From Kiritimatiellia bacterium (GTDB taxonomy: Bacteria; Verrucomicrobiota; Kiritimatiellia; UBA8416; JADHWI01): DNA of 64,000 nucleotides. Below are positions 1 through 17,590 of the stretch, piece by piece. Below the pieces are notes generated by a model that did not search any database, had not been told where the DNA came from, and worked only from the letters and a program-made list of their open reading frames with translations. A program made the translations under genes and the position numbers. Where the stretch lies: contig JASLPY010000019.1 of assembly GCA_030744755.1 (NCBI GenBank), positions 1 to 64,000 of the forward strand, given 5' to 3'. The stretch's first letter is position 1, and the number at the start of each line of letters is the position of its first letter.

Positions 1-167
1 GCTTGGGGGAACGCTATTCTGACACCACTCCATAACTCCATTACTCCACGCTGGTTGCGCCACAGCGCAATCGGCTCCAGTATCCGTCAATTTCCTTTCA
101 TGAAATGCTATCTTTTCCTATGCTTCGAACCGGGACCTCAATCAAATCATGAAAGGTGCGAACAGTT

Positions 168-1577
168 ATGAGAAGATGGATTGGAGCCTTAGCATGTGCC
201 GCAGTGGGAGTTTTGCTGGCGCTTTTCACCCCCATAGCAACACTGAGTCCACTGGGTCATAAAGTCCTGATGGGTCTGTTGGCTGGCGTAGGTTTATGGA
301 TCTTCCAACCGGGGAAGATGCCCTTCTCTGTTGCCTCCTGCCTGGTGATGGCCATTTTCGTAATGGCGGGAGTTAGCGAAAAGCTGGTTTTTGCAGGCTT
401 TACGTCTAAAGCAACGTGGATTCTTATTCCTGCAACAGCCTTCGGCTATGTGTTGACGAAGACCGGACTGGGCAAGCGCCTGGCGCTCCTCGTTATCAAG
501 ACATTCCACCCCACCTACCTCAACATGACCTTTGCCTGGTTGATCATCGGGCTGATTCTGTCCGCCTTCACCCCGTCAATCCTGATTCGCATTGCCATCG
601 TGATGCCTATTGCCACGGGCTGCGTCAGTACGCTCAAGCTTGAACCCGATTCCAGGGGCAATGCATTTATCTTACTGATCGCCTGGGCCATGGCGATAAT
701 CCCCGGATCGGGCTGGCTCACCGGATCCCTATGGGGGCCGATAACCATGGGCATGTACGGAAAGACCGAAGGGCTCGGAGGGCTGATTACGCAGGGCTCA
801 TGGATCCACGCCATGATGCTGCCGATGTTTCTCCTGACCGGGTTGATTATCGCGGGGCTGTACCTGGCGCTTAGACCGGGCAAACTTATCACGCAGACCC
901 GCGACGCTTTTGTTGAAGAATACAAGGAGCTTGGTCCCTGGAGCCGTGAGGAAAAATGGGCTACGGTAATCATGGTGCTTACCTTCCTGCTGTTCCCGAC
1001 AGAGAAACTGCATGGATTGGGCAACGTGCCCGCATGCCTCATGGCCTTCTTCCTGCTCTTTGCCGTGCGGGTACTGGAGCCCGCCGATGTTGCCAAGGGT
1101 GTGGCATGGAACCTGATCATCTTTCTCGGTTGCGTCCTCGCCCTGCCGGCCATATTCGGCAATCCGGATGTAGGTGTCTCTGCCTGGATCAAAGAGTTGA
1201 TCTTTCCCATCCTTACCCATTTCGGACAGAACCCATGGATGTTCGTAATGGTCGTTCCCCTGCTGATGTTCGCCTGGCGTTTCCTTGATATCGCCTGGAT
1301 GATTCCCACCATGGCCCTGCTGGTCTCCATGCTGCCGTTCATCCACAGCGAGTTCGGGATTCACCCGCTGGTGACAAGCTGCCTGATGATCATGGCCGGC
1401 AACTTCGCTTTCCTCCACTACATGCAGCCCTTCGCGCTAATGGGTTCGGCCCTGGCCAAAGAACGGAGCTGGACGCCAAACCAGTTGATGCGGTACGGCG
1501 TGGTCTACCTGGTCAGTTGCATGATAACCCTTGCCATCAGCATCATCTACTGGCAGCAGACCGGGTTCATCGAGTAG
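168..1577 (+). CDS. SLC13/DASS-family anion transporter
   Basis: Polytopic inner-membrane protein of about 469 residues with roughly a dozen hydrophobic segments, the usual length and pattern of the divalent anion:sodium symporter (SLC13/CitT) family, which moves di- and tricarboxylates or sulfate. A helix-break region reading LSAFTPSILIRIAI followed by a hydrophobic helix resembles the first substrate/sodium-binding hairpin, although the classical Ser-Asn-Thr motif is not obvious there. I prefer the ATG at 168 (MRRWIG), preceded by AAAGG about 11 nt upstream; a GTG at 156 is possible. No partner gene nearby reveals the substrate; sulfate would fit the sulfatases further on, but that is inference. 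Confidence 0.8.
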   Translation: MRRWIGALACAAVGVLLALFTPIATLSPLGHKVLMGLLAGVGLWIFQPGKMPFSVASCLVMAIFVMAGVSEKLVFAGFTSKATWILIPATAFGYVLTKTGLGKRLALLVIKTFHPTYLNMTFAWLIIGLILSAFTPSILIRIAIVMPIATGCVSTLKLEPDSRGNAFILLIAWAMAIIPGSGWLTGSLWGPITMGMYGKTEGLGGLITQGSWIHAMMLPMFLLTGLIIAGLYLALRPGKLITQTRDAFVEEYKELGPWSREEKWATVIMVLTFLLFPTEKLHGLGNVPACLMAFFLLFAVRVLEPADVAKGVAWNLIIFLGCVLALPAIFGNPDVGVSAWIKELIFPILTHFGQNPWMFVMVVPLLMFAWRFLDIAWMIPTMALLVSMLPFIHSEFGIHPLVTSCLMIMAGNFAFLHYMQPFALMGSALAKERSWTPNQLMRYGVVYLVSCMITLAISIIYWQQTGFIE

Positions 1578-1620
1578 TTTCTTCACGAGAAGTAGTTAGA
1601 GCCTGTCAGAAAAGGGGTAC

Positions 1621-1750
1621 TGGAGCCCGGCGGGCCTCCTCCGGCCGCGCAATGCCAGCGCGTTTGCCTGCGACAGCGAGAACTTCGTTCACTTCTGTCA
1701 CATCTATGCACATTGCTTGCTCCATAGCGGCGGAGGCCCGCCGCACTCCA
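1621..1750. repeat. TGGAG/CTCCA-bounded palindromic element, copy 1
   Basis: A 130-bp element starting TGGAG and ending CTCCA. Near the left end a stem CCGGCGG / CCTCCGG encloses loop GCCT; near the right end GCGGCGG / CCGCCGC encloses loop AGGC, the reverse complement of the first loop. The middle is closely similar to the copy at 35479-35638. It fills the gap between the transporter and the sigma factor and has no credible coding sequence. Confidence 0.85.
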
Positions 1751-1870
1751 TGCACCTCCCTATCCACAGCGGGAATTCTCGTTGTCTCCCCGGGCTTGAA
1801 TTGTGCTGAAAAAGTCTGAAAGATAGACGAAACCAGCCTGCAGCAACGCTATATGTGTGAAGAGAGCTTA

Positions 1871-2368
1871 ATGGACTGGAAGAAACTTATCGATGAGCAT
1901 GGCGCGAAGCTTGTTCTTTATGCCCGGCAGTGGTGTGACAGCCTTGTCGACGCAGAAGATGCAGTCCAGACCGCTGTTGTTAAGCTCTGGAAGAAGCACG
2001 AAGCCGATGAGAGCCTGCCGCTGGGGAGAGTCTTCGTGGCGGTTAAACATGCGGCTATTGACACGGTCCGGAGCAGCAAACGGCGCAGGCTCAGAGAGCT
2101 AAAGGCAAATGAGGAAGAACTGGAAGGGACCAGCCTGTTCGAAGCCGCCGAGATCGAGGAAGAAAGACGGAAGCTCATTGAGCATGCCCTGGGGAGGCTG
2201 CCGGTCGAACAACGCGAAGTGATTGTGATGAAGATCTGGAGCGAAATGACCTTCAAGGAGATAGGTAGAGCGCTTGGGATATCACAGAACACGGCCGCTG
2301 CCAGGTACAGGTACGGGTTACGGGCTTTGGTTAGGATGTTACCGCATTCGACGGCGTCCACCTCGTAG
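1871..2368 (+). CDS. ECF-type RNA polymerase sigma factor
   Basis: A 165-residue sigma-70 family protein of extracytoplasmic-function size. Region 2 is visible as DAEDAVQTAVVKLWKK followed by the helix HAAIDTVRSSKRRR; region 4 as LPVEQREVIVMKIW then the helix-turn-helix FKEIGRALGISQNTAAAR. I start it at the ATG at 1871 (MDWKK), which follows a GAAGAGAG ribosome-binding sequence, not the ATG 18 nt upstream. The next two genes encode a one-TM protein and an exported PDZ protein, so regulation by membrane sequestration is plausible. The last residues (STASTS) and the TAG stop lie inside a palindromic repeat, so the original C-terminus may have been altered. Confidence 0.92.
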   Translation: MDWKKLIDEHGAKLVLYARQWCDSLVDAEDAVQTAVVKLWKKHEADESLPLGRVFVAVKHAAIDTVRSSKRRRLRELKANEEELEGTSLFEAAEIEEERRKLIEHALGRLPVEQREVIVMKIWSEMTFKEIGRALGISQNTAAARYRYGLRALVRMLPHSTASTS

Positions 2369-2418
2369 CGGTGGACGTACTGGGAAACGGAAGTAGGTCC
2401 ACCGCTACGAGGTGGACC
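2356..2418. repeat. Paired hairpin element (loop TCGTAGC / GCTACGA)
   Basis: Two hairpins in mirror orientation: stem GTCCACC/GGTGGAC with loop TCGTAGC, then GTAC, a 12-nt spacer, GTAG, and stem GGTCCACC/GGTGGACC with loop GCTACGA (the reverse complement of the first loop). The TAG inside the first loop is the stop codon of the sigma-factor gene. There is no T-tract, so it is not a standard intrinsic terminator. Confidence 0.9.
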
Positions 2419-2485
2419 AAGCGATAGGGTGGTGAAGATCTGTCGCTATGGAAGTGCACGCTGATGCAGAAGAGCCCAGAATAGT

Positions 2486-2995
2486 ATGATGGACGAGGAA
2501 CTGAAAAAGCTTGAGGCGGAACTAGCCAGATTAAAGCCACGGCAGCCCAGCCGGCGCCTGGAAGCAGGCATCGCCGGTGAGTTGGCGAATCCCCAATCAG
2601 GCAGTGTTGCCTGGTGGAAGCCTGTTCTTGCGGCAGCGGCGACTATTGCGCTTGCCGCTGGCGCCTGGTCCTTCTTCATTCCCGGGCAAAAGGTGCCGAA
2701 GGTTGCTGAGGTCTCTCCGCCTTCCACTGTTGCTGTCGACACACAGAACGATCTTGCCTCGGCACGGACTTCTGCGGACAGAGCCCGCCGTGTTTTTCGT
2801 CCAGTGAAGGTGCAGACAGCGTTGCTGGGATACAGGGATGACGGGATAATTCTGACCTCGCGGAACAGGCCGGTACGCAGCAGATCGTGTCAGCTGCTAG
2901 ACTACGTGGAACTGGAAAGTCTGGATGGAAAACGAAAGATCATGGTGACGAAACCCAGGAAAGAGATTGTGCTGGCAAGGGCGCATGTTCTTTAG
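2486..2995 (+). CDS. Single-TM protein, possible anti-sigma factor
   Basis: A 169-residue protein with a charged N-terminal helix (MMDEELKKLEAELARL), one transmembrane segment around residues 46-65 (VLAAAATIALAAGAWSFFI) and a C-terminal domain of about 100 residues. Topology (cytosolic N-terminus, single TM, periplasmic tail) and position directly after an ECF sigma factor are those of an anti-sigma factor. I see no CHCC zinc motif or recognisable RsiW/RseA-type domain, so the assignment rests on context. Two ATGs are adjacent at 2486 and 2489. The ribosome-binding sequence is weak (AGAAGAG), so it may be translated less than its neighbours. Confidence 0.6.
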   Translation: MMDEELKKLEAELARLKPRQPSRRLEAGIAGELANPQSGSVAWWKPVLAAAATIALAAGAWSFFIPGQKVPKVAEVSPPSTVAVDTQNDLASARTSADRARRVFRPVKVQTALLGYRDDGIILTSRNRPVRSRSCQLLDYVELESLDGKRKIMVTKPRKEIVLARAHVL

Positions 2996-3031
2996 CCGGG
3001 TGAACGGAAACAAAACAGAGGAGGGTGAAGG

Positions 3032-3970
3032 ATGAAGAAGATGATCGTATGTTGGTTTGTTGCGGCGATGGTCGCGGCGGTGGGTCTGGCGGGAGCTGCC
3101 GAGGAGGCCGAAAAGGAGGCGTTTCTGGGAGTGTCGACAGGACCCATTGGAGAGGCCCTGGTGAGTCATCTAGGCCTGAAAGATGGGCTGGGGCTGATCG
3201 TGACGCATGTTGCGCCCGGGAGTCCGGCGGCGGAGGCGCTCGAGAAAAACGATATCCTCCTGAAAGTGGGTGACCAGAAGCTCGTGAATCATGACCAACT
3301 GGCCACGCTGATTCGCGCACAAGGTCCAGGTGCCGAAGTTAATCTGGAGGTCATGCGCGGCGGAAAGACGCAATACAAGAAGGTGACCCTAGGGGAAAGG
3401 GAAGCCCGGAAATGGGGACGTGGCCGCTGGAAGGGCGCATGGGATGGGAGTAAATGGCAACACGGCGAATGGCCTGAATTTCACATCTCCGGCCCCATGG
3501 TCAACTGGTTCAATTCCACCAACGTCCCCGGGAACCTGAAAGGCCTGAATGGCGAAGGCGTCGAAGAGCTGATGAAGGGGATCAGAGAGAAGAGCAAGGA
3601 ATGGCACAAAATGTCGGACGAGGCCCGCAAGGATATCATGGACTCCGTTAGCAATGCCGTGAAAGAGGCCCACTCGTCACACTCATTCCGTATCAAGGAC
3701 ATACTTGGCCGTCACGGCAGCAAGAGCGTGTCTTCAAGCGCATCGGCCAGCATCTCGACAACGATGATTGACGATGACGGCGTTACCATTTCGATCTCAG
3801 ACAACAACGAAAGCCGCCAGCTGACCATCAAGGATAAAGACGGCAAAACTGTTTTCGATGGTCCGATCACTACTGACGAACAGATGGAGAAGATTCCCGA
3901 GGAGTACAAGGACCGTATCAAGGAACTCTCAGACACGGTTCATATTGATGTGAATGTGGATCTGCAGTAG
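3032..3970 (+). CDS. Exported PDZ-domain protein
   Basis: A 312-residue protein with a cleavable signal peptide (cleavage near AGA-AEE, residue 22-23). Residues about 30-120 form a PDZ domain of the HtrA/DegP type: a carboxylate-binding-loop-like stretch, then VTHVAPGSPAAEALEKNDILLKV. The rest is Ser/Lys/Asp-rich with no protease triad visible, so this is a binding or adaptor protein rather than an HtrA enzyme. The start is set by GGAGG just upstream of 3032. It follows the sigma/anti-sigma-like pair at short distance, consistent with one transcript and a role in envelope stress sensing (inference). Confidence 0.8.
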   Translation: MKKMIVCWFVAAMVAAVGLAGAAEEAEKEAFLGVSTGPIGEALVSHLGLKDGLGLIVTHVAPGSPAAEALEKNDILLKVGDQKLVNHDQLATLIRAQGPGAEVNLEVMRGGKTQYKKVTLGEREARKWGRGRWKGAWDGSKWQHGEWPEFHISGPMVNWFNSTNVPGNLKGLNGEGVEELMKGIREKSKEWHKMSDEARKDIMDSVSNAVKEAHSSHSFRIKDILGRHGSKSVSSSASASISTTMIDDDGVTISISDNNESRQLTIKDKDGKTVFDGPITTDEQMEKIPEEYKDRIKELSDTVHIDVNVDLQ

Positions 3971-4078
3971 TAATGAACAAAGGGATGCAGCGACAGTCAC
4001 AGCGGAATTCCTCTGGCACGTTCTAACTCGCCGATCGGCCGCAATATGTGGTAGATCCATTCCCGGAGGGAGCATCCG

Positions 4079-6862
4079 ATGCGAGAAACACGGCAACTGA
4101 AGAGCACGAGCGTGATCACGGCAACCATGACCGTGCTCTTCCTGATCCTGACTGCCGTCTGCTCCACGGGACGCGTCCCTCCACCGTCAGAGACGCCGGC
4201 CAAGATCATCATCAATGGCCGCACCTCCACGGCAGTCGATATCAAGATCGTGAAGGTAGGGCAGGAACTGCCCGACACCCTGTCGGCGCCGAAAATCAAG
4301 AGCATTCGCGGTTACGACTGGTACGTGAGCGAGCACTTTGCCTTGAGGTCGGAAGTGGATGAGAAGCAGTCGCGCGACTACTTGACGATCTCGGAGTTGG
4401 CCTATCCGCATTACGTGTGGATCTTCGGCGGTGAGCCTGCCGGAATCGAGACGAAACGCATTGCCTTGTCGTTTTCAAAAAGCATGGAGCGGCTCAAAAA
4501 AGCCAGCGACATTGATTTTGATGGCGTAGGATGGCGCGGCGGAGGCGGAGGCGTCACCCTGCACGGGAACCGGGTCTCCTACAACTATCCCGGTGGCGGA
4601 CTTCGGTCGCATAAGCGGGGCTTGGTCATGCACGAGAACCTGCACGCGTTCCACATGCATCGGGCCGACCGTAGTTCCGACGATCTTCCCGTCTGGTTCT
4701 ATGAAGGGATTACTCACGCCCTCGAGCAGCATGTGTATGATCCGGAGAAAAGGCAATTGACGATCCTGGTGCTGGATCGCCTGTCAGGCAACAACTACAC
4801 GGATTCAGGCTTGGCCGATTTGCGGAAGGACTTTGTCGAAGCCGAACAGTTCTGGCTCGGCAAGGAGGGCATGGGCTACGAGCCGGATATCTACCAACTA
4901 TGGATGCAGTTCCTGTGGTCGGACCTGGACCGCCAGATGCGCCATAGAGTCTGGCTTAATGAGCGAATGGCCCTGGATCTGAGTATTTCCAGGGCCGATT
5001 TCGACAAGGCGATCATGCCGCAACTCTTCGACGTGCCGGCCCTGAACAAGGCGTGGCGGGAATGGGTGGCTGAACGTCAGAATACTTTCCATTACGTCGA
5101 TTGGGGTTTCGAACAGGAGGCGGACACGCTGTGGTCGTACGGATATCCCAACTGGGCGCGATATGCCCAGAAGAACGTGAACCTGCTCCTGAAAGACAAG
5201 GTTGAAACCGCCGACCCCTTCATTATGGACTGGCCGATCTACGCGTCGAAACCGCCGATCGTGGGCGAGGTCAAACGAGGTGTTCGCGAACCATCCGTAG
5301 GATGTGTCATCAACTTCTCGCGGGCTATGCATTACTCGGGTGACTGGGGCCAGGCCGGTCTCGGTTTCGGGGTTGGCGGAACCGGGAAACGGGAGAGCGG
5401 CAATAAGTCGAACGTGGACCAGGAACACCTCGACATTCTGATCATGCATCTCGGCAAAAAGGACAGGGCCCATCTTCTTCTGGATGGATCGACCATCGGT
5501 CTGCCGCGTACCACAGAGCCATTCACTCCGGCATTTCAGTCTGCGGCGGTCACGGGTGACCAGTCGATCGGGTTAACCGTAAAGATGACGTCCGGATCGG
5601 TTGACATTGTTCTGCGGACGGGTCCAGACGACGCGATACAGACTCACCGTACGTCTGTCGCGATCACGCAGGAAACGCGCGAGCGAATTCTCTCAAAGCC
5701 CTGGTGTATTCTATCTAAAGGAACTCATCACGGCTTCACGCTCTTTCCTGACGTGCATCGAGTTGGCACACGTGATTACTCGAAGCCGGGGCCGGTGGGT
5801 CGCACTCGGTTTCTGCCGACGGATGAGACGTATCGCCTGTATCGCGCCGCCTGGCGTCTGGGCGACCAGGCGCCCCGTTCACTGCTGGCTTTGCGCGCGG
5901 ATATGATTGCCTGCGCGGCCAGGTCCCTGGGGGCGCATGAAAAGGCTCTCGCAAAGTTCCATACCGAGATTGCCGACGTGGCAAAGGACGTGGCCGAGGG
6001 GCCGGACAGGGAACGGGCGGCGTTGGCCGTGGCGGACCTCCTGGGGCTCGACCTGCAGTTCAATGTCGAAGCGGGGGCCGAAGCGGGGGACGTCGTTTTG
6101 ACGTCGCTCGTGTCCAGTCGGCTCAGGGGTGCTTTGAAGGGGCAGGTCGCACTAACCGTCTCACCTGCTAAACCGGGCCTGTTGTCGGGATCTCCGGCCC
6201 CGATCGTTGTGTCGGCCACTGAGGATGCCGGCAAAACGTGGAAACTCGAGATTGCGGGGCGCGAGCAGTCCTTCATGGAGTTCACGGTAACAGCCACCCT
6301 GGCTTGGAATGGAATGACGGCGCGCGTGAAGAAGAACCAGCGATTATACCCTTCCGTCTCGCGTTGGTGGACGCTGGGTCCGTTCGACAACAAGGGTGAT
6401 GGTACCGTGGACACGGTTCTCCCCCCTGAAACGGAACCGATAGACCTTGCCAAGTCCTACGCGGGCAAGGGCGGCAAACGGATCGCGTGGCAGAAGAGGG
6501 AATGGCCTGCGACATTGCAGCCAACATCGAATTTCGTCCTGAACTTCGGCGACAACAGGAACTCGGCGGCCTATGCACTGACCTGGATCGACTCGCCAAC
6601 GGCCCGTGACGCCATTCTGGCCGTCGGCTCCGACGATGGTGTGGTGGTTTGGTTGAACGATGAACGGGTTCACGCCAACCTGGTCCACCGCGGCCACGAA
6701 TCGAAGAGTGACAAGATCCCGGTGAAACTGAAAACCGGCCGCAACAAGCTCCTGCTGAAGGTCACGCAGGCCTGGGGTGGCTGGCTGGCCAGTACGCATG
6801 TACTCGACAAGGACGGCAACGAGCTTGCCGACCTCAGCTACGTGCTGGATCCCGATAACTGA
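4079..6862 (+). CDS. Exported HExxH metallopeptidase-like protein with C-terminal beta domain
   Basis: A 927-residue protein with an N-terminal export signal (hydrophobic residues 13-29; a Cys at 28 has only a poor lipobox). The motif HENLH at residues 185-189 followed 20 residues later by WFYEG (Glu 209) is the HExxH + EG arrangement of gluzincin-type zinc peptidases, so a zinc hydrolase is likely. The middle of the protein is not recognised. The C-terminal 170 residues (WWTLGPFDN..., SDDGVVVWLNDERV) look like a PA14/carbohydrate-binding-type beta-sandwich common in exported PVC proteins. The start at 4079 has GGAGG 8 nt upstream. Peptide or glycoprotein substrate is unknown. Confidence 0.65.
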   Translation: MRETRQLKSTSVITATMTVLFLILTAVCSTGRVPPPSETPAKIIINGRTSTAVDIKIVKVGQELPDTLSAPKIKSIRGYDWYVSEHFALRSEVDEKQSRDYLTISELAYPHYVWIFGGEPAGIETKRIALSFSKSMERLKKASDIDFDGVGWRGGGGGVTLHGNRVSYNYPGGGLRSHKRGLVMHENLHAFHMHRADRSSDDLPVWFYEGITHALEQHVYDPEKRQLTILVLDRLSGNNYTDSGLADLRKDFVEAEQFWLGKEGMGYEPDIYQLWMQFLWSDLDRQMRHRVWLNERMALDLSISRADFDKAIMPQLFDVPALNKAWREWVAERQNTFHYVDWGFEQEADTLWSYGYPNWARYAQKNVNLLLKDKVETADPFIMDWPIYASKPPIVGEVKRGVREPSVGCVINFSRAMHYSGDWGQAGLGFGVGGTGKRESGNKSNVDQEHLDILIMHLGKKDRAHLLLDGSTIGLPRTTEPFTPAFQSAAVTGDQSIGLTVKMTSGSVDIVLRTGPDDAIQTHRTSVAITQETRERILSKPWCILSKGTHHGFTLFPDVHRVGTRDYSKPGPVGRTRFLPTDETYRLYRAAWRLGDQAPRSLLALRADMIACAARSLGAHEKALAKFHTEIADVAKDVAEGPDRERAALAVADLLGLDLQFNVEAGAEAGDVVLTSLVSSRLRGALKGQVALTVSPAKPGLLSGSPAPIVVSATEDAGKTWKLEIAGREQSFMEFTVTATLAWNGMTARVKKNQRLYPSVSRWWTLGPFDNKGDGTVDTVLPPETEPIDLAKSYAGKGGKRIAWQKREWPATLQPTSNFVLNFGDNRNSAAYALTWIDSPTARDAILAVGSDDGVVVWLNDERVHANLVHRGHESKSDKIPVKLKTGRNKLLLKVTQAWGGWLASTHVLDKDGNELADLSYVLDPDN

Positions 6863-6893
6863 AAAAACTGTGAACTCGTGGTCGTTGGTGAAC

Positions 6894-7018
6894 GGCACTG
6901 GTTTGAGGTTCTTCACCGCAGCAAAGAAGAACAGCCCTTACGGGCTTAACTACAAACATTGGAACGCGTTGCCGTTCGTAGTTAACGCCGTGAGGCGTGT
7001 CGGCCTTAAACCAGTGCC
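6894..7018. repeat. Long palindrome with inner paired hairpins
   Basis: Outer arms of about 15 nt (6894-6908 starting GGCACTGG and 7004-7018 ending CCAGTGCC) enclose an inner pair of small hairpins: GCCC-TTAC-GGGC followed by TTAACTAC, and GTAGTTAA followed by CGCC-GTGA-GGCG. The inner loops correspond to each other on opposite strands (TTAC and TCAC). It lies between two convergent genes; the rest of 6863-7090 holds nothing else I recognise. Confidence 0.8.
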
Positions 7019-7090
7019 ATTCTGGCCAGTGCCATTCTGCACATGGCGCTTTGGGCCGGCGCGTCCAACAATTCCCTGTGCATCACGGCC

Positions 7091-8380
7091 CTATCTAGTC
7101 TTTTCTTCAATGCGGTACAGGTGGGTTTTGGTTCGTACGATCAGCGAATTTCCCAGCACGGCGGGTGAGGCCATACAGCCGGCGTCCAGCTTGTTTTCCG
7201 CAAGCGTTTCGAACTTGCGGCCCGCGCGGATAACTACTGCTCTGCCGGACGTGCTGAAGAAATAGATCCGTTTGCCGTTATGGATTGGCGAAGCCAGGTA
7301 GTTTCCACCAAGTCGCTCTCTCCAGACGGTCTTTCCCGATTTGGTCTCAAGGCAGGTAAGGGTTCCCTTGTTGTTGGGCATGTAGAACAAGTCTCCGATT
7401 GCCACGGATGACGTAGTTGTTGGCACGTCTTTTCCCTTGATACGCCACGCTACATGCGTCTTAGTCAGGTCGCCCGTTCCATCAGGCCTGATCGCCAGCA
7501 TCTCGGCATCGCTCTGTCCATGCCCCGTCGCTGTCATAACAAGCCCGCTGGAATAGATGGGGCTCACCGCGGGTGTGTGTGCGGAGTTCCCGACCCGCCA
7601 GATCTCTTTTCCGGTGGCGGGTTCATAGGCGATGCAGAAGGTCGAAACCGGGCTGACGAGCTGTTCTTTTCCTCCAACTTCAATAACCAGGGGAGTGGTA
7701 TAGCCCTTGTGGAAGTCGCCTTCACGTTTAGGTACACCGTTCGCGTCCAGATCTTTCCACTTGATATTGCGATCGGTTCTCCAGACCGTCTTGCCGGTGC
7801 GTTTGTCCAGTGCCACCAGGTACTGAACATCCACTCCGTCGAAAGTCACTATGAGGAAGTCCCTGTACAGTATGACAGAGGAGCCCGGACCACGATAATG
7901 ACGGCATGGGAAATCTTCGCGCTTCCAAATCACTTTGCCCGTCGCGGTATCGAGGCAGGCTGTTCCGTAACTTCCGAAGTGAACAAATACCCGCCCCTTT
8001 TCAATGGCGGAAGATGGTGATGCATAGCAGTTGACACTGTTTGAGAGGGATTCCGGCTTGTCGCAATGGAATAGGTGCTTCTCACGGACAATATTGCCGG
8101 TTTCTGCATCCACGCAATAGGCATAGAAGTCGTTACCCTTTTCCGTTGCGCTGGTCAGCCACACCTGGCCGTCCTGAATCACCGGGGTGCACCATCCCAC
8201 GTGCGGAATAGCGGTCTTCCATCGCACGTTCTCACTCTCGCTCCAGCTCAATGGAAGTCCGGAGGACACTACTGAACCGTCACCCCGGGGTCCTCGAAAC
8301 ATCGGCCATCGCTCCTCGGCACAAACCATCCCGCGCACAAGCACGAGCCCAACCAGTAATCCAAACATTTTCCTTTTCAT
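7091..8380 (-). CDS. Exported PQQ-like beta-propeller protein
   Basis: A 429-residue protein with a signal peptide (cleavage after MVCA, about residue 21) and an all-beta sequence of repeated blades of the PQQ/BamB type, recognisable by DAETGNIV, DTATGKVIW, DKRTGKTVW, EPATGKEIW and ETKSGKTVW at regular spacing. The opening WPMFRGPRGDGS is typical of PVC outer-membrane/periplasmic propellers. True PQQ dehydrogenase residues are not evident, so this is a structural or binding propeller rather than a proven quinoprotein. It is divergent from the DUF1080 gene across 145 bp, so the two may share a control region. Confidence 0.8.
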   Translation of the reverse strand: MKRKMFGLLVGLVLVRGMVCAEERWPMFRGPRGDGSVVSSGLPLSWSESENVRWKTAIPHVGWCTPVIQDGQVWLTSATEKGNDFYAYCVDAETGNIVREKHLFHCDKPESLSNSVNCYASPSSAIEKGRVFVHFGSYGTACLDTATGKVIWKREDFPCRHYRGPGSSVILYRDFLIVTFDGVDVQYLVALDKRTGKTVWRTDRNIKWKDLDANGVPKREGDFHKGYTTPLVIEVGGKEQLVSPVSTFCIAYEPATGKEIWRVGNSAHTPAVSPIYSSGLVMTATGHGQSDAEMLAIRPDGTGDLTKTHVAWRIKGKDVPTTTSSVAIGDLFYMPNNKGTLTCLETKSGKTVWRERLGGNYLASPIHNGKRIYFFSTSGRAVVIRAGRKFETLAENKLDAGCMASPAVLGNSLIVRTKTHLYRIEEKTR

Positions 8381-8525
8381 AGTGGGGCAGATGCTACAAA
8401 AAAGAAGGCAGGAAGTCTACGAGCGAGTTCTTCATGAGGATTCTGCTCCCCTTGACGCTTTCATGCAGAAGTCCTATCGTTAATCCAAGCCACAGTGCAA
8501 ACATCTCTAATTGGGAAGAGGAGCG

Positions 8526-9521
8526 ATGAATACAGTCACGCGTAATGAACAATCGGCATGGATCAGAAACACTATTTGGCTGGCAGCATTGACCGTAATA
8601 ATCGGACTGACGCACGTTGCTTGTGCGCAGGAGATTGTCGATCCGCAGGAGGCCAAAACTGATCCCGATTTTGCCGTTCAGGGCGAGTACGTTGGCGAGG
8701 GCACTCTCACGGACGGTACCAAGGCGAAGGTCGGAGCCCATGTCATTGCCATGGGCGACAGCGAATTCGACATCGTCGTCTATACGGGGGGTCTGCCCGG
8801 TGACGGGTGGAAGCGCGGAGACAATCGCCTGTTCATGAAGGCGAAAGGCAAGGGCGGAAGCGGTGATATACATGGCGATGGGATAACCGGAACGGTTGCC
8901 GGCGGGAAACTGAGTGCCGCCGCAGCCGGGAACGACGGCAAACTCGACATCAGACTTGAGAAGACAGAGAGAAGAAGCCCCTCGCTGGGTGCGAAACCGC
9001 CTGAGGGGGCAGTTGTCCTGTTTGACGGGACTGACGTGAAGAACTTTCCCGGAGCCACGCTGACGGAGATGAAAACACTCCAGGCCGGGACGAAATGGAA
9101 TTCACAGGCGGCGATATCGAAGTTTCACCTGGAGTTCCGCCTCTCCTACAAGCCGAAGGCACGTGGCCAGGGCCGCTCAAACAGTGGTGTCTTCCTTGGG
9201 GGCTGCCCTGAGATCCAGGTCTTGGACTCGTTCGGACTCGAGGGCCGCAAGAACGAGTGCGGCGCACTGTACAATCGCCGGGAGCCGGATGTTAACATGT
9301 GTTTTCCGCCACTCACATGGCAGACCTATGATGTGGAGTTCAAGCCGATCAAGAGCGACGACGGCAACTCCACAGCAAAGACCGGCTTCACCGTCCGTCA
9401 TAACGGTGTCGTGATCCACCCTGGCTACCAGGTTGGCGGCAAGCCGTCCGATCCGCGGGGACTCAGCCTTCAGAAGCACGGCAACCGGGTACAGTACCGG
9501 AACATTTGGCTTCTTCCGTAA
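8526..9521 (+). CDS. DUF1080 (3-keto-disaccharide hydrolase-type) secreted protein
   Basis: A 331-residue exported protein. After the signal peptide (to about ACAQ) comes a beta-rich region of some 120 residues, then from GAVVLFDGTDVKNF to the end a DUF1080 domain, a concanavalin-like beta-sandwich; family hallmarks seen are LEFRLSYKP, SGVFLGG, EIQVLDSFG and the closing RVQYRNIWLLP. Some members of this family hydrolyse 3-keto-glycosides. ATG 8526 follows a strong GAAGAGGAG site; an in-frame ATG at 8511 is less likely. The next gene is a Gfo/Idh/MocA oxidoreductase, the type of enzyme that could make 3-keto sugars, which supports a joint role. Confidence 0.85.
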   Translation: MNTVTRNEQSAWIRNTIWLAALTVIIGLTHVACAQEIVDPQEAKTDPDFAVQGEYVGEGTLTDGTKAKVGAHVIAMGDSEFDIVVYTGGLPGDGWKRGDNRLFMKAKGKGGSGDIHGDGITGTVAGGKLSAAAAGNDGKLDIRLEKTERRSPSLGAKPPEGAVVLFDGTDVKNFPGATLTEMKTLQAGTKWNSQAAISKFHLEFRLSYKPKARGQGRSNSGVFLGGCPEIQVLDSFGLEGRKNECGALYNRREPDVNMCFPPLTWQTYDVEFKPIKSDDGNSTAKTGFTVRHNGVVIHPGYQVGGKPSDPRGLSLQKHGNRVQYRNIWLLP

Positions 9522-9604
9522 TCCTTGCCGCGTGCAGTGTGTGGCCCGCGGCTTGCGTGGCTATCCTGAGATTCTTCGAAGATAAAGAACATATTGTGCA
9601 AGAT

Positions 9605-9668
9605 GCGGCGGAGGCCCGCCGCACTCCAGAAGATTCTGCCAACATGGAGCGCGGCGGGCCTCCGCCGC
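9605..9668. repeat. Paired hairpin element (loops AGGC / GCCT)
   Basis: Two GC-rich hairpins, GCGGCGG-AGGC-CCGCCGC and GCGGCGG-GCCT-CCGCCGC, separated by 28 nt that begin ACTCCA and end near TGGAGC. Loops are reverse complements. It has the same loops and terminal words as the 1621 and 35479 elements but inside-out order (hairpin-CTCCA...TGGAG-hairpin). It sits after the DUF1080 gene. Confidence 0.9.
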
Positions 9669-9850
9669 CTGGGGCATCCAGGGGATACTGTCAGAAAATA
9701 GTCCACTGCCGGCGAAGACCTCAATTATCGCGCAGCACCTTGGCCAAACTGCTTTTGTGAGCTATTGATAAGGGACTGGAAAAGGAAACGCGGTAATCCG
9801 GCCGAAAGCGGATTTCCGCCGGAATTGCCTGAAACAAAGGAGAGTCGATC

Positions 9851-11065
9851 ATGAGCGTACCAGTTAGTGCTACCCGGCGCGGGTTCCTTCGAGGAGCCGC
9901 ATCGGCAACAATTGCTGCCCCAATGATTCTTCCAAGCTCCGTTCTGGGAGCCGAGGGGACAACTCCTCCGAGCGAACGCATCACGATGGCAGCCATCGGC
10001 GTGGGTGGTCGCGGCACGGGCAATATGAGGGGTCTCTGCGGCTTTAAGGAAGTGCAGATGCTTGCCGTTTGCGATCCCGTTCTTGCTCACCGAGAACGTG
10101 CCAAGGATCACGTTAACCAGCGGTACAATAACAAAGACTGCAAGGCGTACGTTGATTTTCGCGAGATCATGATTCGGGACGACATTGATGCCATAGCCAT
10201 CGGCACACCCGACCACTGGCACGCAATTATGACCATCGAGGCTTGCAAGCACGGCAAGGACGTTTTCTGCGAGAAACCGGAGACGTTGACTATCCGCGAA
10301 GGGCGCGCCATGGCCGACGCGGTCCGCAGGTATGACCGTGTCTTCGCCGGCGGTTCCCAGCGGGTATTGGGTGACTACAAAAACTGGCCCGAACTGGTAC
10401 GCGGCGGTGCCCTGGGAGAGATCAAGGAAGCTTTCGTGGCTTGTGGCGGTCCGTCAGGTGTCTGCAATCTCCCCGAAGAACCTGAGCCTGAAGGACTCGA
10501 TTGGGACATGTGGCTTGGTCCGGCTCCCTGGCGCCCATACAACAGCAGGCTGACCCGCGGCGGATTTCGCCCGTACCGCGATTACTCCGGCGGCGGAATG
10601 ACCGACTGGGGAGCCCACCGTTTCGGTGCCGCGACGTTCGCAATCGGCGTACACAAGACGGGGCCCGTAGAGGTGATTCCCCCCGATGGTAAGGACGTAG
10701 ACAAGCTGACCTTCCGCTATGCCAACGGGCTGAAGATCTATCATGGCGGTACGGGTAACATTACCTACAAGGGCACCAAGGGTGAGCTGCCCGGAAAACA
10801 TGGTGAGCTGTCGGGTCCGGTGGACATGGAACGCTACAGGGGCCGTGGTATCCTTGGCGACTTTGTGGAATGCGTGAAGACCCGGAAACGGGCGTTCCGT
10901 GATATCGAAATCGCACACCGTGCCACGACTGTCTGCCATCTCGGCAACATCGCGTACTGGCTCAAACGCCCACTGAAATGGGATCCCGACAAAGAGGAGA
11001 TAATAGGGGATCCGGAAGCGGCCCGCTGGCTTGACCGGCCAAAACGCGGGACCTGGGCAACCTGA
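9851..11065 (+). CDS. Tat-exported Gfo/Idh/MocA family oxidoreductase
   Basis: A 404-residue NAD(P)-dependent sugar oxidoreductase. The N-terminus carries a twin-arginine signal (RRGFLRG, residues 9-15, then a hydrophobic stretch to VLGAE). The mature part begins with a Rossmann glycine motif (AAIGVGGRGTGNM) and has the family signature DVFCEKPETL, whose lysine acts in catalysis, and the substrate-side SGGGMTDWGAH region. Tat export fits a protein folded with its nicotinamide cofactor before transport. AAAGGAGAG lies 7 nt before the start. Together with the DUF1080 gene upstream it could form an oxidise-then-cleave pathway for glycosides; substrate not known. Confidence 0.9.
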   Translation: MSVPVSATRRGFLRGAASATIAAPMILPSSVLGAEGTTPPSERITMAAIGVGGRGTGNMRGLCGFKEVQMLAVCDPVLAHRERAKDHVNQRYNNKDCKAYVDFREIMIRDDIDAIAIGTPDHWHAIMTIEACKHGKDVFCEKPETLTIREGRAMADAVRRYDRVFAGGSQRVLGDYKNWPELVRGGALGEIKEAFVACGGPSGVCNLPEEPEPEGLDWDMWLGPAPWRPYNSRLTRGGFRPYRDYSGGGMTDWGAHRFGAATFAIGVHKTGPVEVIPPDGKDVDKLTFRYANGLKIYHGGTGNITYKGTKGELPGKHGELSGPVDMERYRGRGILGDFVECVKTRKRAFRDIEIAHRATTVCHLGNIAYWLKRPLKWDPDKEEIIGDPEAARWLDRPKRGTWAT

Positions 11066-11153
11066 TCGGGGTCAGACACTTTTTAACGTTAGACACAACA
11101 TTCGAAAGCAGAAAGAAATGGGCGTTAGACAAGGCCGATCTTGGACGAGTAGA

Positions 11154-11284
11154 GTAGGCACCTATCTCCGAGAGGTGCCAGCGGCAGGACCGCGGCGGCA
11201 TGGTGAACGGATAGTGCCTGCGCCGCCAATTCACCCGGCCGCCACTCTCTTGCCGAGGGGCGCCTCTCGGAGATAGGCGCCTAC
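11154..11284. repeat. GTAG/CTAC paired-hairpin element, 131 bp, copy A
   Basis: Left hairpin: GTAG then stem GGCACCT, loop ATCTCCGAG, stem AGGTGCC. Right hairpin: stem GGCGCCT, loop CTCGGAGAT, stem AGGCGCC, then TAC. The loops are exact reverse complements, while the stems differ between the hairpins yet each is self-complementary. The element is exactly as long as copy B at 14294-14424, but the 80-nt interior is largely different. The remainder of 11066-11344 shows nothing I recognise. Confidence 0.95.
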
Positions 11285-11344
11285 TGGGAGAGTGTCCGAG
11301 AAAATGCTTAAGTCAGAGTCATTCAACAATAGGGAGTTCTTACC

Positions 11345-12151
11345 ATGAGATATTCTAGACTTACAACTACCGTTCTGGTCCTCATTGCAGTCGCCGGATC
11401 TATCGGCCTGGCACAGGATGTGGACCTGAAGAAGACCCTCGATGAACTATTGCCTGCTATGAACGCAGAGAAGATCCCGGACCGGTCCAACGCGGAAAAG
11501 AAGTGGGAAGAGATTTGCTTTCAGCTTGGGGCGCCTGGAAAAGAAGCCCAGAGGTCTGAGGCCTGCAAGCTCATGGTGGCGAAAGTAGGCAAAGACACCC
11601 CAACACCCGTTCGCTTGTGGATGCTGAGGCAGCTCGAGCGCATTGGCAAAGATGAGTGCGTTGATGCCACGGCAGCTCTGCTGGATGACAAGAATGCCAC
11701 TGTCCGCGATGCCGCCCGCCGCGTGCTGACCAACAATCCTTCGCCAAAGGCCAATGCCGTGCTGCTCGACAAGATGCAGGGCACGGGCGAAAGAGATTTC
11801 AAGGTTGCGCTGCTGAACTCGCTCGGGTATCGGGCTGATCCCGGGAGCACGGCCGCTGCAGCCAGGGAGTTGCGGAATTCGGATCGTGCTGTAGCAGTCG
11901 CAGCAGCGGCAACGTTGGGCAAGGTTGGCGATGTCGCCGCCGTCAATGCACTGGTCGCAGCGCGGAAGAAAGCAACCGGTGATCTACGCCGTTGCATCAA
12001 CGACGCCTGCCTGGCATGTGCCGAGAACCTGTTGGAACATGGCAAGACCAGGGAGGCGACGGCCATCTACAAAGAGCTCAACAAGCCGGAGGAAGGCCGT
12101 ACGGTTCAACTTGCCGCGATGAAGGGTCTGCTCAAGGCCGCAGGCAAGTAG
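11345..12151 (+). CDS. Exported HEAT-repeat protein
   Basis: A 268-residue protein with a signal peptide (cleavage after IGLA-QD, about residue 23). The mature part is all-helical with HEAT-type repeats, for example ATAALLDDKNATVRDAARRVL and AVAVAAAATLGKVGDVAAVNAL. Such repeats serve as scaffolds for protein binding; no catalytic motif is visible. The start is preceded by AGGGAG at 8 nt. It lies 19 nt upstream of a short-chain dehydrogenase gene, so the two are probably co-transcribed, but a functional link is not apparent. Confidence 0.75.
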   Translation: MRYSRLTTTVLVLIAVAGSIGLAQDVDLKKTLDELLPAMNAEKIPDRSNAEKKWEEICFQLGAPGKEAQRSEACKLMVAKVGKDTPTPVRLWMLRQLERIGKDECVDATAALLDDKNATVRDAARRVLTNNPSPKANAVLLDKMQGTGERDFKVALLNSLGYRADPGSTAAAARELRNSDRAVAVAAAATLGKVGDVAAVNALVAARKKATGDLRRCINDACLACAENLLEHGKTREATAIYKELNKPEEGRTVQLAAMKGLLKAAGK

Positions 12152-12170
12152 GGCGCAGGATCATCCGCAC

Positions 12171-12884
12171 ATGAACGAGCTGAGTTCTATTAAGGACAAG
12201 TGGATACTGATCACAGGTGCGTCGAAGGGGCTCGGCCGGGAAATGGCGGTGCTTTTTGGAGAGGCGGGAGCGAATCTCATCGTAACCGCCCGAAGCTCTG
12301 AGCTGCTCGAAGAACTCAGATCGGATGTTGTTGCCAGTGGCGTTGAGTGTGTCACTGTTGCCGGCGATCTTCGTGATGCCGCGATGCTTGAGAAGGTCAA
12401 ATCGCTCTGCATCAATAAACAGATCGATGTCCTCGTCAACAACGCGGGCGTAGTGGATATCACACCGCTGGAAGGCGTGTCCGACGAAAGGATCGACGAG
12501 GTCATAGAACTGAACCTGCTGATACCGATCAAACTGACCAAAGCCGTCATCGGAATGTTCAAGGATCGCAAGCGCGGGGTGATAGTTAACGTTAACTCGG
12601 CCGGTGGCAAGAAGCCGGTCCCTGATCACACGATCTATTGCGCTTCGAAGTACGGGTTCAACGGATTCGCCGAGACGCTCAAACTGGAGATCAAGGGACT
12701 TGGCATTCGGATCATAACGGTTTGCCCCGGCAAGATGGCTACCGAACTGTTCAACGCGGCGGGACGCACCATGGACACCGACGCGTTTATCTCGCCGCGC
12801 GAAGTTGCCCAGGGCGTCTTGTACATGCTGGAGATGTCGCCCAAATGCTCACACGCGGCATTGGATGTCGACAGGATGTCGTGA
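12171..12884 (+). CDS. Short-chain dehydrogenase/reductase (SDR)
   Basis: A 237-residue cytosolic classical SDR. Cofactor motif TGASKGLG at residues 15-22, structural NNAG at 90-93, catalytic Ser 143, Tyr 156 and Lys 160 (YCASK) are all present, so the protein should be an active NAD(P)-dependent oxidoreductase. Arg 41 after the second beta strand (TARSSE) suggests NADP preference (inference). No signal peptide, unlike most neighbours. A second SDR follows after a repeat-filled gap; together they may process oxidised sugars made by the exported enzymes, but the substrate cannot be read from sequence. Confidence 0.88.
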   Translation: MNELSSIKDKWILITGASKGLGREMAVLFGEAGANLIVTARSSELLEELRSDVVASGVECVTVAGDLRDAAMLEKVKSLCINKQIDVLVNNAGVVDITPLEGVSDERIDEVIELNLLIPIKLTKAVIGMFKDRKRGVIVNVNSAGGKKPVPDHTIYCASKYGFNGFAETLKLEIKGLGIRIITVCPGKMATELFNAAGRTMDTDAFISPREVAQGVLYMLEMSPKCSHAALDVDRMS

Positions 12885-12894
12885 TACCGGAGAT

Positions 12895-13003
12895 CTGAAT
12901 TCTCACGAATCCAGCTACGGGAATGCGGTGACTCCTCTTGTAGCTGAATCCGCTTGCCACGCCGAATGCGCCGCAGGCACAGAAGGAGGGTGAGGATTCA
13001 GAT
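12895..13003. repeat. GTAGCTGGATTC-family palindromic element
   Basis: Contains CTGAATTCTCACG then AATCCAGCTAC, a 21-nt spacer, then GTAGCTGAATCC, and later TGAGGATTCAG. Arms match those of the element at 35346-35429 but in inside-out order (CTAC...GTAG). It begins 10 nt after the SDR stop codon. The rest of the gap to 13117 holds nothing recognised. Confidence 0.8.
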
Positions 13004-13116
13004 GTACAAGGCTTGAGGATCCTTGGCCCATGGTTCGAATTTCCACTTTGAATGATACGTCTCCCCATTTTACGCCTTTATTGAACTGAACATACTCCCT
13101 ATGCTGTTTGATTGAT

Positions 13117-13842
13117 ATGCAATTGGATCTGACAGCGAAAACAGCGATAGTCACTGGTGCCGGCCGCGGAATTGGCAGAGCCATTTCCATGATGCTTGCA
13201 TCTGCAGGGGCACATGTCATTCTCACCGCCAGGACAGAAGAGCAGCTTGAGAGTGCAGTGGACGAGATCACGTCCGCCGGTGGCAGCGCCGAGGCCTTTC
13301 CCGCGGATCTTGCCGATGAACCCGGCATCCTGTCCCTCTTCCAGGCCGTCAGCGCAAACCACTCCCAACTGGATATTCTTGTCAACAATGCGGGATACGG
13401 AGTGTTCGGACCGTTGGCGGACTTCAAAACGGAGGACTTCGATACAGTCATCGATGTAAATCTGCGGGGAGCGTTTATCTGCTGCAGGGAAGCCATGAAG
13501 CTGATGATCCCTAACAGAAGCGGATACATCATCAATGTTTCCAGCGTTGTAGGGTTCAAAGGCTATCCAAACCAGGCGGCTTATACCGCCGCCAAACACG
13601 GAATCATGGGCATAACCAAGTCCCTCGCCGCGGAGGCACAGGAACACAACATACGTGCCAGCGTTATCTCCCCCGGCGGCGTGTCTACAGAACTGATACA
13701 TAACGCAAGGCCTGACTTGGATCCCAACGAACTGATGCAGCCCGAAGATATTGCGCAGGCGGTAGAATACCTGCTTTCGTTATCTGACCGTGCCGCCATC
13801 GACGAAATCTATATCAGAAGAAAGAACAGTCAGCCCTTTTGA
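13117..13842 (+). CDS. Short-chain dehydrogenase/reductase (SDR), FabG-like
   Basis: A 241-residue classical SDR related to, but clearly different from, the one just upstream. It has TGAGRGIG at residues 13-20, NNAG at 90-93, Ser 142/143, Tyr 156 and Lys 160 (YTAAK). The FabG-like features include INVSSVVG and VISPGGVSTEL near the end. The ATG at 13117 is my start; a TTG 9 nt earlier is in frame but there is no convincing ribosome-binding sequence for either. Probably NAD(P)-dependent oxidation or reduction of a hydroxyl/keto metabolite in the cytosol. Confidence 0.87.
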   Translation: MQLDLTAKTAIVTGAGRGIGRAISMMLASAGAHVILTARTEEQLESAVDEITSAGGSAEAFPADLADEPGILSLFQAVSANHSQLDILVNNAGYGVFGPLADFKTEDFDTVIDVNLRGAFICCREAMKLMIPNRSGYIINVSSVVGFKGYPNQAAYTAAKHGIMGITKSLAAEAQEHNIRASVISPGGVSTELIHNARPDLDPNELMQPEDIAQAVEYLLSLSDRAAIDEIYIRRKNSQPF

Positions 13843-13869
13843 CAGAATCCTTGCGCTGGACATAGGACA

Positions 13870-13946
13870 ATCTGAATTCTAACCTGCCCGCAATGGCTGC
13901 GCCATAGTCGCTGCAGGCGGGCGAATCCAGACGAATCGCGCTTGAG
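13870..13946. repeat. Degenerate GTAGCTGGATTC-family fragment with hairpin
   Basis: CTGAATTCTAAC at the left and GCGAATCCAG at the right flank a hairpin with arms CCTGCCCGC and GCAGGCGGG. The flanks match half-arms of the repeats at 12895 and 35346. It lies between the second SDR and the glutaredoxin-like gene. Confidence 0.55.
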
Positions 13947-13976
13947 TAATGCACTCTAAGGATTGGAGGGATCATC

Positions 13977-14252
13977 GTGCCGAAAGTAGAGATCTATTAT
14001 GCCCAGATGTGCGGGCTATGTCACAAGGCCATGGATTATTTCGATGAGCATGGTGTTGAGTACACGTCTTACGAAGTGTTCTGGAGAGACGAGCAATGGG
14101 TTGATGATGACAACTCCCGCGCAATGCTGAAGCGCTGTGGTGTCGTCGACTATGTCCCTCAAGTGTTCATCAACGACGAACACATAGAGGGCTGGAAGAC
14201 TCTATCCCGACTCATAGAAACGGGCGAGATTGATAGGTTGCTGGGAGATTGA
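13977..14252 (+). CDS. Glutaredoxin-like protein
   Basis: A 91-residue thioredoxin-fold protein with redox motif CGLC (Cys 12, Cys 15) after the first beta strand, a cis-proline stretch VPQVFIND and the closing glycine region HIEGWKTL, all as in glutaredoxins of 80-95 residues. It starts at GTG 13977, fixed by GGAGG 6 nt upstream. It lacks a signal peptide and so works in the cytosol as a dithiol oxidoreductase. The acidic insertion WRDEQWVDDDN between the motif and the cis-proline is longer than in typical GrxC. It is the last gene of the plus-strand group. Confidence 0.85.
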   Translation: MPKVEIYYAQMCGLCHKAMDYFDEHGVEYTSYEVFWRDEQWVDDDNSRAMLKRCGVVDYVPQVFINDEHIEGWKTLSRLIETGEIDRLLGD

Positions 14253-14293
14253 TTCGGAATGGTACCTGGTAAGAGCGGTTTGGTGCGAATGAA

Positions 14294-14424
14294 GTAGGCA
14301 CCTATCTCCGAGAGGTGCCCAGTGGCAGAAAAGCTGCTACCGCGAGAATAGCCGGGGCACGGCTCTTTCCATTCTCTCTCTATGCATCGATCTGCCGCGG
14401 CGCCTCTCGGAGATAGGCGCCTAC
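14294..14424. repeat. GTAG/CTAC paired-hairpin element, 131 bp, copy B
   Basis: Arms identical to copy A at 11154-11284: GTAG, stem GGCACCT, loop ATCTCCGAG, stem AGGTGCC on the left and stem GGCGCCT, loop CTCGGAGAT, stem AGGCGCC, TAC on the right. Total length is again 131 bp, although the interior is different apart from a GGCAG.../...TGCC continuation of the long outer stem. It sits between convergent genes. Confidence 0.95.
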
Positions 14425-14446
14425 TTAGAATGCCCCGCCAATCTAC

Positions 14447-17578: not shown

Positions 17579-17590
17579 AAGTTGAGCGCG

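Follow-up and report, generated by a model that had tools for sequence, protein, structure and literature searches.

GTAG-tagged mirror hairpin pairs in a Kiritimatiellia genome resemble REPINs, and three RAYT-like genes are flanked by pairs of their own families

The hairpin pairs dispersed along the 64,000-nucleotide stretch analyzed here (the window, G000:C110:1-64000) are very probably GTAG-tagged REPs organized as mirror dimers (REPINs or BIMEs), non-autonomous elements that would be spread by Y1/HUH RAYT (TnpA-REP) transposases. This assignment builds on the architecture, dispersal, and copy number of the pairs, on the covariation of their stems, and on three RAYT-like genes that such pairs flank. 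The general hairpin rule proposed in an earlier, sequence-only reading of the window (the first-pass annotation) is the known build of REPs and REPINs.

The window belongs to an assembly of 6.28 Mb in 530 contigs that is 89.7% complete (the home genome, G000). The comparison genomes were RB_MAG_00009 (G016) and CSMAG_1684 (G020), completeness being 90, 88, and 74% for the three in this order. Scans beyond the window used a 0.856-Mb sample made up of the window and 40 stretches of the home genome; stretches C22, C44, C55, C233, and C500 were picked for listed family A copies, and densities in the sample do not equal genome averages.

Results

Architecture of the hairpin pairs

Each of the seven loci listed in the first-pass annotation (2356, 6934, 11154, 14294, 17528, 42133, and 52056) was read and proved to be a pair of mirror-oriented hairpins next to GTAG/CTAC or GTAC (Table 1). 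The loops of the two halves are in general (near) reverse complements, as had been proposed, but those of families F (tcct/tctt) and E (gccaa/actaa) agree only partly. Similarly, the stems do differ between halves, but solely in the outermost pair at 2356 and in one pair at 11154 and 14294. The loci fall into the five families that had been claimed as a minimum (A at 11154, 14294, and 42133; C at 2356; E at 52056; F at 17528; H at 6934), with the reservation that A and C look related. The list itself was incomplete, as the window holds further copies of families B and G.

Table 1. Hairpin elements of the GTAG-tagged families in the window
Element	Position	Strand	Structure	Remark
Family C inward dimer	2355-2418		left hairpin CGTCCACC-tcgtagc-GGTGGACG + TAC, spacer, GTA + GGTCCACC-gctacga-GGTGGACC	one GTAC half, one GTAG half
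Family H inward dimer	6931-7000		GTAGTTA-AGCCC-gtaa-GGGCT (-), GTAGTTA-ACGCC-gtga-GGCGT (+)	
Family A outward dimer	11154-11284		GTA-GGCACCT-atctccgag-AGGTGCC, 79 nt, minus-strand half GTA-GGCGCCT-atctccgag-AGGCGCC	
Family B single hairpin	12895-12918	-	GTAG-CTGGATTC-gtga-GAATTCAG	one pair non-Watson-Crick
Family A outward dimer	14294-14424			built like the 11154 dimer
Family G single hairpin	17475-17496	-	TCCGATT-tgc-AATCGGA	GTAGG foot
Family F outward dimer	17528-17578		GTA-GGACAGGTG-tcct-CACCTGTCC / GTA-GGACGGACG-tctt-CGTCCGTCC	
Family B outward dimer	35346-35429		GTAGCTGGATTC... on +, GTAGCTGGATCC... on -	
Family A inward dimer	42133-42191		GGGACCT-CTCGGAGAT-AGGTCCC + TAC, 7 nt, GTA + CATGCCT-ATCTCCGAG-AGGCATG	
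Family E outward dimer	52056-52123		GTAG-CGGAACTC-gccaa-GAGTTCCG / GTAG-CGGAAGTC-actaa-GACTTCCG	

The GTAC word, which the first-pass annotation had met once, is a regular component of inward dimers. All 16 inward A dimers sampled in the home genome combine a GTAG half (GGGACCT or near) with a GTAC half (CATGCCT or CATACCT); the gap measures 7 nt in 14 of the 16. The distinct inward C dimers of the sample (8/8) likewise join GTAG and GTAC halves and have a spacer similar to that of A. In family H, the seven readable inward pairs all join an AGCCC- or ACCCC-type half to an ACGCC-type half. As in REPINs, the inverted dimer is the copied unit; the family A pair at locus L112, whole or in parts, matched 51 stretches in G016, some of which are one place on both strands.

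All seven loci are extragenic according to a mechanical ORF list, with Pfam support for several of the neighboring genes. Overlapping ORFs at 6777-7265 (+) and 52085-53296 (+) are without a Pfam match and abut genes that have one, and the element at 2355-2418 overlaps the 3′ end of a sigma-factor ORF (1853-2368). The TAG stop codon of this sigma-70-like gene (Pfam), at 2366-2368, lies within the left-hairpin loop of the pair. Another neighbor, on the minus strand at 42216-45698, adjoins a family A pair and encodes a 1160-amino acid protein with laminin-G-like, HZS_alpha (E 2.8e-25), and WD40-like matches.

The hairpins exceed chance and carry a strand-specific foot

The window was compared with 20 dinucleotide shuffles and with other feet by counting perfect hairpins with a stem of at least 7 that begin 3-5 bases after the first base of GTA[GC]. 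It contains 14 of these (shuffle mean 0.85) and seven pairs of opposite-strand neighbors at most 170 bases apart, compared with none in each of the 20 shuffles. One of the seven pairs consists of the G hairpin and the adjoining F dimer, and the footed-hairpin match at 41592 appears accidental; locus 6934 is absent from the matches because its stems are of 5 bp. The pattern is thus far from equally frequent in shuffled sequence. That we are dealing with chance hairpins in intergenic DNA, for which only the large number of scanned loci speaks, is next to impossible: besides the pairs missing from every shuffle, tens to more than 100 exact copies genome-wide refute it for families A, C, H, and I, whereas F (3) and G (4) have few copies.

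Within the window, a hairpin follows the GTA[GC] foot at 14 of 675 sites, compared with 0/361 for CTA[GC], 3/1439 for GAT[GC], 4/1098 for ATG[GC], 4/685 for AGT[GC], and 2/874 for TGA[GC]; the control foot TAG[GC] (7/371) overlaps the same elements. In the 0.856-Mb sample, 52 of 4498 GTAG sites and 1 of 4499 CTAC sites are directly followed by a hairpin, and the foot is therefore strand-specific. A looser scan of the sample was less sharp (GTAG 102/4419, GTAC 59/5214, GATG 48/9258, CATC 43/9258, CTAC 11/4419), the 102 for GTAG comparing with 11 to 59 for eight other feet, of which GTAC is the 59. When all tetranucleotides were ranked in the sample, AGTA and TAGC came out level with GTAG and overlap the same elements. 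As in REPs, the GTAG foot marks one side of the hairpin in a strand-specific manner, family A being a variant with GTA and a paired fourth base.

The hairpins might instead be kept as RNA elements, namely as intrinsic or bidirectional terminators or as mRNA-end stabilizers, with stems that covary since the transcript must fold. Each of the seven loci is either intergenic or at the end of a presumed gene, covariation of pairs is expected of selected RNA, and Di Nocera 2013 (PMC3733652) takes many REPs to act as RNA. We nevertheless consider such a role very unlikely. Among the five listed loci within 1-20000, the range of the terminator scan (42133 and 52056 lie outside), only 6934 (-) has a terminator-like element hairpin, and the combination of a GC hairpin and a T run does not characterize these five. 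A purely RNA role also leaves unexplained why the foot is strand-specific and why pairs flank RAYT-like genes.

The ranking of sample feet placed GAGG and GGAG fourth and fifth, and these mark another repeat. Its GC-rich hairpins (e.g. GCGGCGG-gcct-CCGCCGC after a GGAG foot) also form mirrored pairs and occur in the window at 1611-1750, 9605-9676, 35469-35597, and 41988-42020. In addition, a repeat of 78 nt (87% alike) and a palindrome that is long but imperfect were seen at 55628-55803 and 60195-60272; they match no GTAG family. Rfam gave no match anywhere in the window.

The home genome holds about ten families

We sorted the families by the loop of their GTA[GC]-footed hairpins. The loops are ATCTCCGAG in A, GTGA/GTTA in B, GCTACGA in C, CTCCGA facing TCCA in D, GCCAA/ACTAA in E, TCCT/TCTT in F, TGC in G, GTAA/GTGA with a 5-bp stem in H, and CTCTCCAGAG in I; a further family with a CCAGTTG stem was found beside the RAYT-like gene C166. 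The home genome thus holds ∼10 GTAG-tagged families, seven of which (A, B, C, E, F, G, and H) occur within the window.

Many copies are dispersed, as in REPs and REPINs, and second genome copies, which the first-pass annotation had made decisive, are plentiful. Exact genome-wide matches number 113 for the family A core CTATCTCCGAGAG (control 0), 59 for the family C hairpin core (reversed-pattern control 0), 34 for H, and 24 for I (backwards-pattern control 0 in both). The 0.856-Mb sample contains 15 perfect-stem hairpins of B, 7 + 6 of D (a seventh D2 row, L038, being a family I hairpin and left out), 6 of E, 3 of F, and 4 of G; with so few sample copies, and unlike stems in G, families F and G are thin.

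The families had been described as unrelated, which does not hold for all of them. Families A and C have a common 26-nt layout, agree in 6 of 9 loop letters (atCTcCGAG and cgCTaCGAG), and build their inward dimers alike, with CTAC-TTC...GTAC feet and a similar spacer; the D loop CTCCGA recurs within that of A. On these sequence grounds, A and C may be kin.

Family A stems change but stay paired

For family A, we collected every GTA + 7 + loop + 7 without requiring pairing, which yielded 69 home copies along with 55 in RB_MAG_00009 and 34 in CSMAG_1684. The loop and GTA were required, and many loci were fetched via core patterns that fix pairs 1-2 (home) or pairs 1-3 and one side of pair 7 (RB_MAG_00009 and CSMAG_1684). 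Pairs 4-7 are Watson-Crick in 65, 66, 65, and 63 of the 69 home copies (shuffle means 33.9, 24.4, 34.5, and 32.6), in 53, 52, 51, and 42 of the 55 RB_MAG_00009 copies (36.3, 43.1, 21.9, and 24.4), and in 34, 31, 32, and 34 of the 34 CSMAG_1684 copies (25.4, 15.4, 12.6, and 20.9). The 55 copies taken from the sample stretches alone, which are free of the fetching bias, gave 51, 52, 52, and 50 (26.8, 19.0, 27.6, and 26.6), with pairs 1-3 near constant (CCT/AGG in 51 to 54). When the loop was left free, 65 sample hairpins of GTA + 7 bp + 9 nt were found, comprising 43 with the A loop, 3 with a one-letter variant of it, 17 with the C loop or a one-letter variant, and 2 others.

As the shuffles leave the kinship of copies in, the number of pair types is the sturdier sign, and each of places 4-7 shows 2 to 4 of them. 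Pairs 4-7 of family A change yet stay paired in all three genomes. Unpaired changes exist, pair 7 being non-Watson-Crick in 13 of 55 cells in RB_MAG_00009. Pair 7 uses the fourth base of "GTAG"; since this base is a covarying stem pair in family A, the constant foot is GTA. The running text of the literature covered contains no description that we could find of a family with its fourth foot base in a covarying stem pair; we make no claim to a first report.

The first-pass annotation regarded covarying stems as a departure from REP/RAYT elements. They are part of the known pattern: complementary changes in stems, and dimers with differing stems, are coded in the text of Di Nocera 2013, while Corneloup 2021 (PMC8266576) reports for two TnpA-REPs that some stem places can be changed although a perfect stem is required.

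Paired stems could also arise during replication by template switching (quasipalindrome correction), which would change both arms in one step and has been proposed to keep hairpin stems perfect (PMC8794818). The few unpaired cells at pairs 4-7, despite 2-4 pair types per place, agree with it, but single-sided differences such as those at pair 7 exist, and the process leaves the foot unexplained. We rate it as unlikely; it is compatible with spread of the REPs by RAYTs, and the present data do not separate the two.

Mixed-stem dimers and in silico folding

The three genomes contain 54 family A dimers, 3 of which have equal outer stems. In the set of all copies that excludes three inward dimers of the other two genomes, 3 of 51 dimers have equal stems, compared with 11.4 expected by random pairing, and none of 5000 shuffles gave so low a count. 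Once identical dimers are collapsed, the count is 3 of 29 against 3.2 expected (3047/5000 shuffles). Avoidance of homodimers is therefore not supported, and whole-dimer copying suffices to explain the excess of mixed stems.

Folding in silico indicates that, compared with equal-stem versions, the real mixed pairs weaken a single long hairpin by ∼7-16 kcal/mol, depending on the group. For most pairs, the computed energies still favor the long hairpin; two hairpins come out ahead in 2 of 9 outward home pairs and in none of 42 in the other groups. Formation of two separate hairpins would thus be a kinetic step. The preference for mixed dimers, described without an obvious explanation in the text of Di Nocera 2013, where protection from hairpin-removing enzymes is suggested, hereby gets a number in the form of this computed cost to the long hairpin.

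Three RAYT-like genes are flanked by their own hairpin families

The likeness to REP/BIME elements and RAYT (Y1) transposases suggested in the first-pass annotation is strengthened by a search for Y1 genes: such genes are present, and three of them are flanked on both sides by pairs of this kind. Pfam Y1_Tnp has seven matches in the home genome, six above the cut-off, and NCBIfam REP_Tyr_transpos has 14 rows at E up to 1, representing 10 genes and one chance-level row (C20, E 0.57). In total, the home genome contains 10 RAYT-like genes and one IS200-type gene (C497).

The C55 gene has three family H pairs before it and one after it. One half of these pairs is GTAGTTA-ACGCC, as in the window, and the other is a GTAGTGA-GCCCC variant that is found also away from the gene (L073). 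The C55 protein contains the motifs HWH and YIHANP, which we take to be Y1 transposase motifs. It matches NCBIfam REP_Tyr_transpos at 4e-20 and the solved TnpA-REP structure 4ER8 (E 4.7e-4); its scores lie below the curated cut-offs of NCBIfam (72.2 of 80 bits) and Pfam (22.2 of 23 bits). A homologue from another family of the order (G016:C97) is 50% identical and has GTAGTTGCGGCGTRAGCCGC-type hairpins on both sides.

The C365 gene (8202-8546; 91 bits on REP_Tyr_transpos, cut-off 80) is preceded by family I at 7872-7932 and followed by it at 8601-8727. The C166 gene (52.7 of 80 bits, missed by the motif scan) is preceded by three pairs of CCAGTTG hairpins and followed by a fourth; one half carries a GTAC foot. 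This CCAGTTG family has no copy in the 0.856-Mb sample, outside of which C166 lies, whereas H and I are also scattered through the home genome. A RAYT flanked by its own hairpins, the arrangement of a REPtron, is thus found for H, I, and the CCAGTTG family. In G020, which carries family A, other Y1 genes likewise adjoin GTAG hairpins of their own.

Further arrangements were seen at other Y1-type genes. A RAYT-like gene at L141 (G020:C264) is preceded by four tandem GTAGTG-TTGGCT-GTCCCT-AGCCAA hairpins and followed by one more. The IS200-type gene (L031, G000:C497:73534-76872) lies between GTGG-TATC-TCCCGC hairpins that are found elsewhere in the sample (10 pattern matches, some of them two strands of one hairpin). 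At L033 (G000:C320:1-2032), a RAYT-like gene of 345 amino acids is enclosed by inverted GGGACGTCCCTAGAACTTAGA-type repeats, similar to the TIR-flanked transposases in the text of Di Nocera 2013.

A single machinery common to the families, as the first-pass annotation had supposed, is not borne out by these findings, as each flanked RAYT bears its own hairpin family. Under such a proposal, one transposase would serve several or all families and recognize nothing but the foot, the two-hairpin shape, and a word in the loop, for example CTMCGA. The likeness of A and C in layout, loop letters, and GTAG + GTAC inward dimers, the D loop CTCCGA, and the lack of an adjoining RAYT for families A to F in the assembly would agree with it. 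However, the three RAYT-like genes go with three different hairpin families, C55 and G016:C97 keep a similar hairpin across families of the order, and published TnpA-REPs require particular loops or bulges in the texts consulted. We therefore judge a common transposase unlikely.

Spread of family A and the search for its transposase

A search of 387 genomes of the phylum recovered the 15-base core of family A from two, namely the home genome and G016. In named genomes, the matches comprise 52 stretches, all in RB_MAG_00009 and CSMAG_1684 (home records are possibly not covered). At one shared locus, CSMAG_1684 has a full A pair and RB_MAG_00009 a degraded half; at another (L113/L086), the pair is kept in both, with equal stems.

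No hairpin of families A to F was found beside 18 Y1 genes (11 from G000, 3 from G016, and 4 from G020, all of them incomplete genomes), for which flanks of at most 1.5 kb, shorter near contig ends, were scanned. The Y1 flank of C483 contains the A loop word once, with neither foot nor stem, and the flanks of the weak REP_Tyr_transpos rows L161 and L165 (G016 and G020) are likewise free of family A hairpins. Searching for a gene that recurs near family A, we found no cluster spanning all three genomes; clusters spanning two comprise, as judged by eye, ordinary genes and not transposases.

No excision or insertion was seen, nor was an empty site found in the compared genomes. The flanks of L112 were not found in G016, where only REPIN copies matched. 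The L090 site in G016, considered as an empty site, holds half a degraded pair, which indicates erosion instead. The predicted cleavage dinucleotides of GTAG copies are not conserved at the flanks and did no better than others (best 5/34 and 7/34 in RB_MAG_00009, 3/24 and 6/24 in CSMAG_1684), so that they lend no support to strand transfer at GTAG. A 5′ dinucleotide signal in the home genome (23/43), considered as a cleavage site, is the partner hairpin. One pair tried against phages and plasmids gave no match in either.

Discussion

In the cell, spread of these REPs by RAYTs would begin when the strand becomes single and the halves fold separately, one hairpin each. As their loops are complementary, the two mirror hairpins could instead zip into one long hairpin, a fold that differing stems would weaken. 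The RAYT would recognize the sequence of the foot (GTA or GTAG) and of the loop, but the stem chiefly for being a duplex, and would then cut and join beside the hairpin. As the stem would matter mainly as a duplex, its base would be free to change if both arms change.

The elements closely resemble the GTAG-tagged REP superfamily of Di Nocera, De Gregorio and Rocco 2013 (PMC3733652), described there with 5-13-bp stems, HH and TT dimers, several families per genome, and family-specific RAYTs. Shared features are the foot at one end, the short loop, complementary stem changes, mixed-stem dimers, and RAYT neighbors of particular families. In contrast to this superfamily, family A is constant in GTA alone, and the sampled inward dimers of A and C consist of GTAG and GTAC halves, for which the text of that paper (its figures aside) gives no case that we could find.

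For two group 3 TnpA-REPs, from Stenotrophomonas maltophilia and Marinomonas, Corneloup 2021 reports that the loop is read by sequence, that stem mismatches are harmful, and that GTAG acts guide-like. Several stem swaps, including at the base, were tolerated, and the S. maltophilia enzyme cut better when the three bottom places were swapped. The present elements agree with this system in their perfect stems, a loop that would be read by sequence, the changeability of some stem places, the GTAG before the hairpin, and the HUH Y1 enzyme, as far as sequence can tell. However, replacing GTAG by GTAC abolished S. maltophilia cutting and shifted the Marinomonas cut site, whereas GTAC halves are abundant here.

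The REPINs of Pseudomonas fluorescens SBW25 form three RAYT-linked groups with specific RAYTs (Bertels and Rainey 2011, PMC3116915). Compared with the text of that work, the home genome has more families, and many A pairs have their feet inward with a 7-nt gap. A Y1/HUH enzyme, subterminal hairpins, and guide tetranucleotides are also known from IS200/IS605 TnpA elements (PMC8266576). Unlike those, the elements here are gene-free, and the hairpins that flank the sole IS200-type gene (C497) have a GTGG foot and belong to none of these families.

For family A, a more specific scenario can be drawn, although we think it quite improbable. Families A, C, and D would be one REP lineage without a transposase of its own, moved in trans by the RAYTs of other families, with recognition confined to GTA, the CTMCGA-like loop, and the upper end of the stem. 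The fourth base of the foot would have become part of the stem, the fixed GTAG + GTAH pairs would have feet that set two cut sites (at the left and the right end), and the stems would be renewed arm-to-arm in replication.

Natural variation in three genomes shows that the lower REP stem is kept only as a duplex while its pairs change, in agreement with in vitro results for two RAYTs from other bacteria. A genome in which about ten families coexist, three of them accompanied by a RAYT and the largest counted one (A) by none that was found, lends itself to asking whether RAYTs serve their own family only.
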